DNA of 64,000 bases from Tribonema minus (lineage: Eukaryota; Sar; Xanthophyceae; Tribonematales; Tribonemataceae). The stretch is from positions 1,674,001-1,738,000 of the forward strand of contig JAFCMP010000223.1 of the NCBI GenBank assembly GCA_017506865.1. The letters run 5' to 3'. The notes under the pieces are model-generated. The model did not search any database. It was not told the DNA's origin and worked only from the letters and a program-made list of their open reading frames with translations. Shown here one piece after another: positions 3,852 to 60,600 of this stretch; the stretch's first letter is position 1, and every line of letters begins with the position of its first letter. The position numbers were made by a program, and so were the translations under genes.

Positions 3852-6800
3852 CTAGAAGTGGATGGGCTTGTCATACGTGGCCATGCACGCCTCCTTGAGG
3901 GCCTCGCTAAGAGTGGGGTGCGCGTGGCACGTACGCGCAACGTCTTCGCTCGAGGCGCCGTACTCCATGGCGAGCACGGCCTCGCCGATGAGCTCGCCCG
4001 CGTTGGGGCCCATGATGTGCACGCCGAGGATGCGGTCCGTCTCCTTGTCCGCCAGGATCTGCCCAAGGCACACGCGGAGCAAGTTTAGTGCGTGCCTGTG
4101 ATCAATCGACGCGTTGTTGATCGAGAGGCGACAACTTCAAGCGAGAAGCAACAACCGCGTTGGGGCCCATGATGTGCACGCCGAGGATGCGGTCCGTCTC
4201 CTTGTCCACCAGGATCTGCCCAAGGCACACGCGGAGGGCATAGACAGCATAAGCGCTGTGCCTAGAGATGATAGCCCTTTAGTGTAGCAAGTGATAATTT
4301 CAAGCGCCGCTGAATGAGGTGAGGATGCGGTCCGTCTCCCTGTCTGGCAGGATCTGCGAGGCACACGCGGAGGGCATGGACGAAGTTTGGCTGTGTCTGT
4401 AAGAGCCATTCTGTACGTCCCAAATTATCTTGAAATATCAAGAAAAACAGTGGCGTCGATCTTGAAGGGCCGCTGATCAGGTCATGACTTTCACGACGAC
4501 CTTTCAGGCTCGATGAAGGGAACATGACGTGATTGAAACAGCGCGAGAACATTTCAGCCAATCAGAGGGCGCGGCCGAACATTGCCACCTGCAGCCATGA
4601 CAGACTTCACTTTTGTTGAAGTTGAAGTTGCCCTCACCTTGATGAGCCCGTCCGCTGACATGCACGGCTGTTGGCGGAGAACGTGCGCACATGACCATCC
4701 TCCAGCCATGTACAACTTCACTATTGTCAAAGTGGAAGTTGCCCTCACCTTGATGAGCCCGTCCGCGAAATCGGTGCAGCGCGCGCAGCTGATGGCGGAG
4801 AATGGGAGCGTTCCCTTCTTGTAACTGACATTTGTCTGACGCACATGATCATCATACAACCAACTTTCACTATTGTCAGAGTCGAAGTTATTCACACCTT
4901 GATGAGCCCGTCCGCAGATCCAGTGCAGCGCGCGCGGCTGTTGGCGGAGAACGGGAACGTTCCCTTGTTGTAACTGACGTTTGCCGCCTTGAGCTCCTCC
5001 TCCGTCTTGCCCACGGTGGCCACCTCTGGGTGCGTGTAGACCACGCCTGGGATGCAGTCGTAGTTGACGTGCCCCGCAAAGCCGGCGATGCCTTCCACGC
5101 ACGCGATGCCCTGCACAGTCACACAATGTTTTAGGGATCAAAGTTGGACGAGGTGACCAGAAGATCGGGACTTTGGGACAAACGAGCGTGGCGCAGGCCG
5201 CCTGTTAAAACCCGAACCCTAATCCTTACCCCAAGCCATGCTTTCCAGCTACTGTGGTAGATGCCACGTTGTCAACAGAGTGAGATGCATTGTGATATTG
5301 ATTTATTCATGGAGTGCGGCCACCGTTTTAAATGACCGAAGGTCCGCACAGCATACAGCATCTGTAGCGAAGGCTAGGAGATGCGTGCCGGAATTTGGAG
5401 CCAGCACACGACAGCAGGGTGTTTACCTGCACCACTATCGGCAGCTGCGCCATTGCTTAGCAGTGCGCAGCCGCATTCGGCATGCTTGACAGTTATCATT
5501 GACAACCGTCTACGCGAGGGTGAGGACATCGTACAGTCAGTTGTCTCACACACCAAGCGCGCCACTGGCAGCGAGAGTCATTATGCGCCAAGTGCTCAGC
5601 TGTCCAGCAGAGTCGGAAAGCAACTGTTGGTGGAGAAACTTTTGAAGCATCTTGAGTAACTTCAAGGGCCTTGAGACGTCGGTTTCCACAGGTAAATTGC
5701 GCTGAGGGCAACCATGCTGTGCTAGACATTTGACCCATTTATTCGCATTGCGGCGCAACCACAAGCGCTGCAGCCCTCCAGGCCAAGAGCCTTCCGGCAA
5801 GAGGCCAACCTCAACTGCAGGTTCACAAAGTGCTATACGATGATAGTTGCCACATTGCCCTCCTGATCACGCCCGTGCAGTGCAAGCATAGGTCAACTTG
5901 CTTAAAGTCCCAGTGCGCATAGGTATGCCAGTCCGTCAATGTCAGTCCACTAGACCTTAGCCTTTGCTACTGTAATGTCATCTAGTACCCCCTTGGAAAT
6001 CTTTCAACTCTTGAAGAACACCTTTTTTGGCGGCTGACCAACCTCCTCAGCCGTTGTGGGTGACGACTGTAGTCGCCCAACTCACATGCGCTCGGCACCG
6101 CTGAAACCTGCCGTCGCGCTCTCCACTTCATCTTTTGGACAAAGACACAGAGTTGACCTCCGAAGACGCCTCAAAGCCGCCGACCGCATCTCTCAACTTC
6201 CGCTCGCAAGGTAACAACAACACTGAGCACTGACCTCCTCCTCAGCCCTGCACGCGAGCATAGCCCTAAATGCAGCCGCTGAACGCACCTCTCAACTGCC
6301 AACAGCATCTCACAACTTCAACTTTTACTGCCAGAAACTGAGCACTGGCCTCCTCCTCAGCCTTGTGGGCGAGCATGGGTCGCGTGGTGCACGGCGCCTC
6401 CTCAGCCTTGTGGGCGAGCATGGGTCGCGTGGTGCACAGCGCCGAACGCACCTCTCAATCGCCGACTGCAACTCTAAACTTCAACTTTTCCGGTAACAGA
6501 AACGACAATGAGCACTGACCTCCTCCTCAGCCTTGCCCGCGAGCATGGGCCCTGCGATGCAGCCGCCGAACGCGCCTCTGAACTGCCAACCGCAACTCTA
6601 AACTTCAACTGTTTTCAAAAACTGAGCACTGACCTCCTCCTCAGCCTTGTGCGCGAGCATGGGCCCCGCGATGCAGTCGCCGAACGCGTAGACACTGGGC
6701 ACCGCCGTGCGGAAGTGGCTGTCCACCTCGATCCTCCCGATCTTGTCCATCTTAATGCCCAGCTCCGCGCACCCCAGCCCCTGCGTGAAGGGGCGCCGCC

Positions 6801-57600: not shown

Positions 57601-60600
57601 CTCAGCGCCGCCAAGCGCTGCATGTTCCTGTCCACCTGAGCTTGCTGGCCTGCGCAGGTGACACGCACAAAAGTGAGGTTGGCAAGTCAGGCGCTGAAAA
57701 GTTGAAGTTAGGCGCTGCGTTTGAGCACTGCAAGTTGGCCGCTCTCCACGCAACGCGGCACCAGCAAATACCCAAGTGCAGAAACAGTGTATGATCATGG
57801 CCCACACAATGGGCAGGCGCTGACTGGCCCAGTAGGTCTGAGCGGTATATGATCGAACGGCCATCAGGATGCAAAGATGATACAAACATACATTCGTACA
57901 TAGGTACGAAGTACCTCGACATGACTGTCACCAGTGCCGTCAACGCACACACGCTATGCACCTGCACCTCACGCTCTCTGGTCATTGTTGAAGTATTTGT
58001 TGAAGTATCATGGGGTACGTATGCTCACCTGGCGTCAAGCCGCTCTGGCTGCCCTCCTTGGCTGTGATCCGCTCATTCTCCGTGTGCAGGTTCTCAATTT
58101 TCTGGAGCTTCTTCTGGAGGTTCTGGAATGCCTTCTGGTCCTTGGCATTCACGTCCTCTTCCTTCAGCCCCACCTGCAGCAACCGGCGCCGTTGCAGGAA
58201 AATGCGGCAACTGTGAGCTTTACGCTGTTGCAGCAACCGCATTGTGGTATTCTGCAGGTGCTTAGCCAATGCCACATTGTCAGGTGCTGCCTGAAACTGT
58301 TGAGCTTGTGTGGACAACAGTTGAACTTTGGCAGTTGAGCAGCGGCAGCGCATCACCATTCATAGTCCTCGTTTCCTTGAGGCATGCGCGACTGTACACA
58401 GAGACTTGCACAGCAGGCGGGGGGCTGCTGGGTTGTTGATGGTGTCAGTGGGCACAAACGCAGGGGTTGCACTGGATTTCGCGCAGAGCAGTCCCCGACC
58501 CTAGCCCTGACCCCAATCCTAACCCTACCCCTAGCCCTAACTCTCATCGTCAAAAGCGGCAGCGCCCGCAGGATGTGACGTGGCACGTAGTGCTTTCCTA
58601 TGCATGTGCACCCTGACGCATCATGCATGCACAAATCGCCACAAACGTGTGCATGTTCTGATCAAAGGATGCTGAGCAATGCTGAGCACTGCCTGGCTTT
58701 CACCTCAGCAAGTAGGTATATGCGCCTTCCATCATCAGTAGTATACAGATAGTGACTGCCTTGCAGCCAGGCTTCAGCCCTTCTGTGCAGCTGTGGGCGT
58801 TGCAAAAGCTGGTGCTTGCACATTCGTTGGCATCATTGATGTTGCTGCCCAGTGATAGTGCTGCTGGCTCTCAAAAGTTGAAGTTGGACCCATCACAATT
58901 AGGCCTTCTACATGTGCATGTGCATGTGCCTCCGCCTTCCCGAATGTGTCAACTGCTACGCGTTCAACAACACTACTCAGTCTGCTTAGACCGTGTTCCT
59001 TCTTGTTGGAGAAAAAATGCCCAAGGTGAGCAGACTGTGGTTGCGCTCAATGGTTGGCGGTGTGTGCATTACAGGGAACTCGCCCGATTGGACAAATTTG
59101 TGATGTTGTTGGCGGCACCAGGCTTCAAGCCCAAAGATGCTACTTCAAGTTCAAGCCCTGGGCAGTTACCTTTCCCGTCTAGTATAAGGGCTCGTCAACA
59201 AATGTGACGTACTTGGCGGCACCAGGCTTCAAGTCCTGCTTGCTGCTTAGGTTCAAGCCCTGTGGCCAATCATGTAACACAACTACAGTGTTTCCACATT
59301 GAGCTACTGTATGTGTTGATCTTCTGCGCCTGTTTCTTGAGTTACTTTACAAAATCACGAACCCTAACCCTAGCCTAGCCTAACCTAACCCTAACCCTAA
59401 GAAGAGAACAGAACAGGCGCGCACACCACTACTCATGAAACGCTGTCACATCATTATCACTTCAAGTCCTCTTCTCCTGCCAACCATGCACGCTGAGCAC
59501 TGTGGCTGCACACACGCACAGCGCTCAGCAACACTGCCAGAGTGCTCGTTGTGAGCTCTGTTCGTCTGGCCTTCTGCGCCCTCATGTTGAGGTGCTCTGT
59601 AACTGTTGAGGTACCCCGCAACGTCAACGTCAGGCGCGTCACCTGCTGTGCGCACACGCCCCCCTCAGAATCCGCAACCGCAGCGCTAACCTTGAGTTCA
59701 TGTCTCGCTGGCCCTCTGCGCGTGTGCCTTGACGTGATGCTGCGCGCACACCACCGACTCTGCTATACACTCTGAAACACACTCTGAAACACACGCACAG
59801 TGCCCACCTTGAGCTCTTTTCTCCTGGCCTTCTGCGCCTCCGTATTGACGCCTTGAGGTGCTCTGCGCCTCTGCCTTGACGTACTGCCGTTCTCATGCAC
59901 ACTCTGAAATACACTATGACCCTAACCCAAACCCTGACCCTACCCCTACCCCTAACCCTACTCCTAACCCTAGAACACAGTGCCCACCTTGAGCTCTTTT
60001 CTCCTGGCCTTCTGCGCCTCCGTCTTGAGGTACTCTGCAACTCTGTCTTGACACGTGATGCTGCTCTGCGCGCACCGCCAACTCTGACACACACTCTGAT
60101 ACACACTTTGAAACACACACACAGTGCTCGTACTCGTACCTTGAGCTCTTTTCTCCTGGCCTTCTGCGCCTCCGTCTTGAGGTACTCCGGCAGCTGCTCC
60201 TCGTCCTCCTCACTGTCGCTGCCCTCGCCGCTGTCCGACTCCACAGCATCCTCATCAAACCCCCAGCTGGCACCCGTGTCTTGCTGAGCATCAGCCTCGT
60301 CCTTGCCTACCTTTACGCCAGCCTCCGCAAGCTGCGTGCGCGCGGCGCAATGGGGGGGGGAGGGGGGTACGGTTAATGACGAGGGGGGGAGGGGGGGGGG
60401 GGGGGGTACGGTTCAGTTGCAGCCAGCTGCGTGCACGCAGCGCGGTGTGTTTGTGTGAGTGTGTGTGTGTGTGTGCAGGGGGGTTGGTTCGGGTGCATAA
60501 CGGTCGCGGCAGGCGTGCTGTCAGTCGCGCTGGAGATGTGCTTGAGGTGTGTCACACTTTCAGGCAACACAACATGAGGGTTTCATGAGTTTATGCGCAG

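Follow-up and report, generated by a model that had tools for sequence, protein, structure and literature searches.

Exon edges of the yellow-green alga Tribonema minus recur as local copies, here called echoes, inside the adjoining introns: in a sample of 297 kb on three contigs, 22 of 274 predicted junctions (about 8%) hold 45 copies. The 274 include junctions whose exon falls short of 25 bp, which the search passed over. The probable explanation is that DNA is often duplicated locally and that the copies persist where splicing hides them, with a moderate excess of events at exon edges. Introns are rarely caught in the act of lengthening; a genome with decaying self-copies at one sampled edge in twelve or so would allow the rate of local duplication, its edge bias, and the fate of duplicated splice sites to be measured. 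It would also show a structure so far known to us from single lancelet genes recurring in an unrelated lineage.

Sample and gene models

Coordinates below refer to the window, the whole analysed stretch of 64,000 nucleotides; the window set comprises 102 junctions, with introns of at least 200 bp. Predicted junctions were compared automatically with neighbouring intron sequence. Outside the window, gene models come from our own HMM gene finder, and most junctions there depend on it; Pfam matches support parts of three genes. Because echo copies resemble exons they mislead such a program—several are good enough to be called exons by ours—and 17 predicted exons were deleted as echoes ahead of the junction listing, by a rule that can misfire, as at locus L022. 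This locus, whose cleaned model has 12 stops, was excluded from the junction-copy search, the intron-only test, and the motif-at-junction tests, and is absent from the comparison of junction with interior windows. Locus L025, a satellite, was excluded from junction and word tests.

Echoes at eight exon edges of the window

Within the window the automatic search returned copies at 8 of 102 junctions, exactly the eight boundaries in five genes at which an earlier note on this DNA had reported them. That note had put the number at two to five copies each; the search gave two to four spanning copies at seven boundaries (at kanadaptin three, plus partial ones) and one at the Branch/GT14 gene. The arrays, together with a repeat lying between two of them, are as follows.

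6157..6688, minus strand: DLD donor-side array; real donor 6634/6633; three copies, with first intron-like base at 6519, 6349, and 6234; model agrees with deposited protein
4631..4983, minus strand: DLD donor-side array at the next exon; real donor 4898/4897; copies at 4748 and 4637; model agrees with deposited protein
3998..4381, minus strand: DLD acceptor-side array at the last exon; first exon base 4058; copies at 4215 and 4353; model agrees with deposited protein
4402..4582, no strand assigned: dispersed repeat of about 182 bp in a DLD intron, between two arrays; not an echo
31554..31851, plus strand: glycosyltransferase-like donor-side array; real donor 31598/31599; copies at 31727 and 31840; junction supported by paralogue P0121
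33759..34072, plus strand: glycosyltransferase-like donor-side array; real donor 33825/33826; copies at 33946 and 34061, both without GT; junction supported by P0121
36947..37529, minus strand: costars acceptor-side array; first exon base 37016; copies at 37163, 37293, and 37443, with a fourth at 37725 just beyond the array
41196..41544, plus strand: Branch/GT14 acceptor at 41530; a single weak copy (41379) that takes in 15 bp of exon; doubtful
59285..60187, minus strand: kanadaptin donor-side array; real donor 60140/60139; spanning copies at 59987, 59807, and 59690, with decayed partial ones to about 59296

Chance can be rejected as the origin of these arrays: the window holds 60 local pairs scoring at least 20 (rows overlap), against none in 81 kb of dinucleotide-shuffled sequence. 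The spliced DLD model is identical to the deposited T. minus DLD protein, the costars model without its echo matches Pfam Costars over positions 1–76 of 76, and the kanadaptin junction is continuous in brown-algal homologues. At all seven junctions that can be checked against protein (three in DLD, two in the glycosyltransferase-like gene, and one each in costars and kanadaptin) the real site is the outermost. In DLD, the glycosyltransferase-like gene, and kanadaptin, the copies are confined to one intron of the spliced model and no new intron position has appeared. The Branch/GT14 case is a single 39-bp match, 15 bp of it exonic, at a junction outside the Pfam match.

Not every array is a clean tandem. 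In DLD (3998–4236) and kanadaptin, 50–82 bp around the junction are 98–100% alike and the spacers are not, a patchiness in the sequence which suggests that later conversion or short templated copying may have taken place; a three-point comparison across two-copy junctions, made as a test of the concerted evolution within clusters associated with amphioxus mirages (see below), gave a mixed outcome.

Near-identical copies such as 1529–2084 could be assembly artefacts, but as a general account we reject this reading and give it hardly any credence, since copies on three contigs diverge from the real edge (mean identity over 45 copies 0.80 on the exon side and 0.68 on the intron side).

Known systems compared

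The earlier note knew of no described system of this form; one does exist. In amphioxus, "mirages" have been described in Adh3, the globins BflGb6 and BflGb9, and troponin C, with similar repeats in PGBD5; as the consulted portions of these reports have it, the units span the intron/exon boundary at both 5' and 3' ends, reach up to about 160 bp, and contain AG/GT in many but not all cases, and regular splicing is apparently unharmed (PMC3087553, PMC3902484). In unit position, boundary type, and splice signals, the T. minus echoes match mirages in kind, and hence are not an undescribed structure—the units are near-tandem and span the exon/intron boundary (22 junctions, 45 copies), both boundary types are affected (11 donors and 11 acceptors, a two-sidedness the earlier note had also reported), and many, not all, copies retain their splice dinucleotide. 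They differ in occurring in an unrelated lineage, where they have been counted at 22 of 274 junctions, and in being mostly more decayed than the 81–100% given for BflGb6 mirages.

Intron gain by tandem duplication, as described for a potato RdRp gene and vertebrate ATP2A1, the potato case having duplicated an intron-exon structure (PMC4974935), is similar in that the duplicated piece carries splice signals. There, in the cases described, a new intron results, whereas in T. minus existing introns lengthen and the protein is unchanged where checked.

Introners insert copies of themselves into many genes, according to the portion of the source consulted (PMC9860276), and share with echoes the character of intron-associated repeats; the dispersed repeat between two DLD arrays might speak for such an introner or transposon origin. 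Echo units, however, are copied locally from the exon edge beside them, and in a genome search with window 3990–6700 (three arrays; very common words skipped) the echo parts matched only their own locus, while the 41 other matches, at 69–93% identity, all fell on the dispersed repeat. From this one searched stretch we reject an introner or transposon origin of echo units, which is very hard to credit.

Decay of the copies and the proposed explanation

Spacing is 81–201 bp in 40 of the 45 copies, and the exon share of an array varies, being 15–97 bp in 20 of 21 spanning arrays. The earlier note had described similarity falling with distance from the real exon; this survives as a tendency only, the nearest copy being the most similar at 10 of 16 multi-copy junctions (four of seven in the window; permutation P 0.07–0.10). 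One related pair of stretches, C223 and C144, compared in view of the copy-number differences between haplotypes or somatic cells associated with mirages, is 86–96% identical, and the C223 stretch is without an echo.

The corrected ratio of exon to intron divergence between real edge and echo is 0.51 (0.35–0.76), close to the 0.5 that a conserved exon and a copy free of constraint should show; the copies thus decay without constraint. Frame is not preserved (frame-keeping offsets in 12 of 45), and GT/GC is kept in 10 of 16 donor copies and lost in six; L022 supplies one of the 16. Acceptor copies keep AG in 17 of 19 cases, above the prediction from an assumed 0.8 per base (P 0.03). The AG count, and the calling of several copies as exons by the gene finder, might indicate inner sites retained as alternative or decoy splice sites. 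We reject selection of this kind, and rate the reading as highly improbable, on the neutral divergence ratio and the loss of GT/GC in donor copies; nor are frame-keeping offsets preferred.

Duplications of the same kind also occur in the window away from any exon edge:

29211..29741, no strand assigned: intron-internal local duplication, 270-bp unit, no exon edge
27780..28135, no strand assigned: intron-internal local duplication, no exon edge
33151..33319, no strand assigned: intron-internal local duplication, 88-bp period, no exon edge
59099..59262, no strand assigned: intron-internal local duplication, 104-bp period, no exon edge
1430–2194: local duplication outside model genes

Arrays inside introns have the same period as spanning arrays (medians 116 and 111.5, P 0.76), which points to one general duplication process. 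Under the explanation that we favour, short stretches of T. minus non-coding DNA, mostly 60–240 bp, would be duplicated locally and repeatedly, by slippage, by unequal crossing-over, or by repair in which DNA close by is copied again. Where a unit straddles an exon edge, its copy would end up within the intron and splicing would presumably continue at the original, outermost site, making the change nearly harmless and so likely to be retained. The intron would lengthen by one unit per event; the copy would decay unconstrained, the exon half of the real edge would remain conserved, and the copy would thus come to resemble an echo of the exon; and repeated rounds would yield arrays. The features that we observe—local copies at both intron ends, an outermost real site where checked, unconstrained decay, and a period shared with other intronic arrays—are those such a process may be expected to leave. 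The retained AG in acceptor copies, and the arrays that are not clean tandems (DLD, kanadaptin), sit less easily with this explanation.

Do duplications favour exon edges?

An excess of duplication events at exon edges is likely, to judge from two comparisons: a local copy is present in 18 of 221 junction windows, compared with 95 of 3536 windows in intron interiors, and one exon edge is spanned by 21 of 35 classifiable arrays (19 of 32 without L022, which supplies three events, two of them spanning) where random placement expects 6.8. The placement model takes all model introns, among them some in C223 of great length that may not be genuine; this reduces the share of spanning events that it expects. 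The 35 derive from 62 arrays: 14, including the junction-spanning DLD 6157–6688 and L023 545–1042, were dropped for a smallest period under 60, to leave 48, and then 13 that lay outside model genes, ran past the end of a gene model, were wholly exonic, or crossed more than one edge. If exon-anchored copies are allowed to stay visible twice as long, the expectation rises to 11.4 and the excess persists (P 8e-4); random placement alone does not explain it, which counts against plain masking, and a local bias in where duplication starts may be its source. GC content is rejected as a cause, the junction rate exceeding the interior rate in all four GC classes, in two of these only slightly.

Evidence from intron sequence alone, where exon conservation cannot help, is no more than suggestive of an edge excess (10 of 214 edge against 92 of 3292 interior windows, P 0.09). 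A piling up of duplicated sequence at junctions is rejected: pooled coverage is 0.07–0.08 at 100–400 bp from the edge, 0.04–0.06 at 25–100 bp, and 0.06 in the first 25 bp—no higher at intron edges than inside—and in C223 alone it is roughly flat with distance. The earlier claim that duplications centre on junctions beyond what independent events would give is partly supported: the spanning arrays and the junction windows speak for it, the intron-only comparison and the coverage against it.

The earlier note had further proposed a process that repeatedly copies the junction and inserts the copy just inside the intron. Such a process, acting on recognition of the splice junction or exon edge, would account for the excess of spanning arrays, for the nearest copy being most alike at 10 of 16 junctions, and for an exon share of the unit that is non-uniform (median 0.42, P 0.04). 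We think it improbable all the same, because duplications of the same size and period exist without exon edges, the gradient is weak, the intron-only excess is not significant, and donors equal acceptors, giving no sign of the polarity that copying by way of RNA could produce.

A short word near exon edges

A further reading, unlikely though less so than junction-directed copying, is that the word TTGAAGT (reverse complement ACTTCAA), or structure surrounding it, starts local re-copying and, being denser near exon edges, causes edges to be copied more. Its extended form we hold to be slightly more doubtful: the word, over-represented in non-coding DNA, would seed repeated re-copying of 80–200 bp, edges would act as continuing copy sources, introns would grow stepwise, and a similar process may underlie amphioxus mirages. 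AACTTCAA/TTGAAGTT is the most over-represented 8-mer in the sample (100 against 14 expected), and four related 7-mers occur at 0.25 per kb in exons and 1.64 in introns. Of 274 exon edges, 37 have a member of a set of eight related 8-mers within 75 bp, compared with 96 of 1552 interior windows; the six-letter core, however, is only slightly denser at intron ends (8–12% against 7–7.5% of 100-bp windows). TTGAAGT was not on top in the first word count, and may instead serve as a signal for splicing or be left over from a satellite (L025). A stem joining intron ends through TTGAAG and its complement was not found, with three inverted and three direct cases in 149 introns.

Nine of the 22 echo junctions carry the set of eight 8-mers, compared with 28 of 252 others (P 8e-4), which leaves 13 echo junctions without the motif. 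In the non-window part the set lies at 5 of 14 against 17 of 158 (P 0.02), but the motif was spotted in the window before testing and the non-window part had been used in earlier word counts, so this is not a clean hold-out. Among 5563 7-mers in duplicated arrays ACTTCAA ranks first (10.6 against 3.25), although the best P of this open scan, 0.002, fails correction for that many words, and as 8-mers the TTGAAGT-related words rank seventh and lower. Within duplicated units, the eight-8-mer set is present in 5.1 of 14 arrays in the window (1.1 expected) and in 9.5 of 33 elsewhere (2.5 expected).

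Copies of exon edges within introns

Introns in the window hold copies of their own exon edges: an automatic search of its 102 junctions returned exactly the eight at which the earlier note had described such copies. When the window was aligned with itself and compared with dinucleotide shuffles, 60 nearby pairs (overlapping rows) reached a local score of at least 20, and 81 kb of shuffled sequence gave none. Our sample, taken from a T. minus assembly of 158 Mb in 554 contigs, totals 297 kb—the window, 200 kb of the same contig (C223), and three 10-kb stretches and one 3-kb stretch from other contigs (L022 to L025). 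Two 6-kb stretches obtained later (L026 and L027) are excluded from all counts.

Searching each junction against its neighbouring intron, for introns of at least 200 bp and with L022 and L025 excluded, gave 45 copies at 22 of 274 junctions, 11 of them donors and 11 acceptors; an earlier run with different settings gave 19 of 310. The frequency of copies varies along the genome: for introns of at least 400 bp, 14 of 89 junction windows had a copy in the window, L023 and L024 together, against 4 of 132 in the first 200 kb of C223. A related idea is the gain of introns through tandem duplication (PMC4974935). Among the papers returned by searches of open-licence literature, no title or abstract opening reports such a structure in Tribonema or other stramenopiles, which is no proof of absence.

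Support for the gene models

Gene models came from a small HMM-based finder for which this same sample served as the training set. It recovered the DLD exons and also called several copies as exons; 17 predicted exons duplicating a neighbour were deleted. The spliced DLD protein read from the window matches the deposited T. minus protein along 474 residues with 100% identity, and three of the eight junctions are thereby fixed. Both junctions of the glycosyltransferase-like gene are backed by comparison with a T. minus paralogue, the copy-free costars model matches its Pfam domain over the full length, and alignment with brown-algal homologues continues across the kanadaptin junction; for the GT14 junction, a Pfam search gives no support. 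Pfam also supports, over part of their length, a TMTC-like gene (L023), a DEAD-box gene (L024) and a RecG-like gene (C223). In the cleaned models 49 of 200 predicted introns start with GC rather than GT—an unusually high share, although the HMM put no restriction on GC starts.

Fate of the copies

If copies change freely while the real exon stays conserved, the exon half of each pair is expected to diverge at half the rate of the intron half; the ratio, corrected for chance identity (0.48), is 0.51 (bootstrap 0.35–0.76). Between copies it is 0.58 (0.43–0.84), which matches the expectation for separate descent from a conserved edge, a comparison biased in that direction since copies were detected by their resemblance to the edge. 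Offsets keep the reading frame in 12 of 45 cases; GT or GC is gone from 6 of 16 donor copies, and AG from only 2 of 19 acceptor copies. The proposal that similarity falls with distance from the exon survives as a tendency—at 10 of 16 junctions with several copies the nearest is also the most similar (P = 0.10), and pairwise comparisons run 20 against 10 (P = 0.07)—but not as a regular gradient.

Preference for exon edges

Five measures bear on whether edges are preferred targets. Pooled coverage by duplicated sequence is no higher at intron edges than in intron interiors. Among arrays (groups of local duplicates), 21 of 35 that could be classified span one exon edge (7/11 in the window, 5/12 in C223, 9/12 in L022–L024), where random placement in these genes would give 6.8. 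Exon-anchored copies have a simulated visibility advantage of 1.0–1.5; at an advantage of 2.0, 11.4 spanning arrays are expected against the 21 observed (P = 8e-4; by place 0.07, 0.18 and 0.005, in the same order). Local copies are present in 18 of 221 junction windows versus 95 of 3536 interior windows (odds ratio 3.2), with a higher junction rate in every GC class; within C223 alone the difference is not significant (P = 0.22). With intron sequence alone the counts are 10/214 versus 92/3292 (P = 0.09), and with exon sequence alone 18/211 (P = 0.05 against a doubled interior rate). Lastly, arrays that include an exon edge and arrays that lack one show no difference in period (116 vs 111.5, P = 0.76). 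On these measures, the most likely reading of the sequence is that a single local-duplication process acts across non-coding DNA generally, copies that straddle an exon edge being masked by splicing; a moderate additional preference for exon edges is likely but not settled.

Over-represented words

A sequence word is a possible cause of this edge preference, and one that we offer as a lead. The top over-represented 8-mer of the sample is AACTTCAA/TTGAAGTT (100 observed, 14 expected); together with its variants, which lie in introns and intergenic DNA throughout the sample, it makes up the most over-represented 8-mers. These words, like its 7-letter relatives, are scarce in exons.

Window 6602, 31638, 33858 and 37052: example word sites

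The words have a higher density near intron ends and in the 75 bp next to an exon edge, and one occurs at 9 of 22 junctions with copies versus 28 of 252 others (outside the window 5/14 versus 17/158, a part already used in earlier word counts). Of 5563 7-mers scanned in duplicated units, the core ACTTCAA takes first place, but this rank fails correction for the number of words; moreover, the word was not top in the initial count, and the density of its six-letter core is only slightly higher at intron ends. Such words may act as a signal for splicing or as a seed for duplication, or they may be left over from a satellite.

As a separate observation, L025 (G000:C300:20001-23065) is a satellite with periods of ~143 and 154 bp, rich in TTGAAGT-type words (58 matches in 2851 bp).

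Other repeats

Window 1529-2084: tandem duplication of 277 bp, 99.6% identity
Window 4402-4582: dispersed repeat of ~182 bp in a DLD intron, between donor-side and acceptor-side arrays
Window ~30603-30625, ~34296-34322 and 59917-59971: intronic telomere-like CCCTAA stretches

The tandem duplication is either very young or an assembly artefact. The dispersed repeat has 41 further genome matches, and another copy lies at 21715-21899 of the window. L026 (C223:640001-646000) and L027 (C144:20801-26800) have segments in common at 86% and 96% identity, one of the two carrying a ~2.9-kb insertion; they represent divergent haplotypes or a segmental duplication. One kanadaptin copy is interrupted by a telomere-like CCCTAA stretch.
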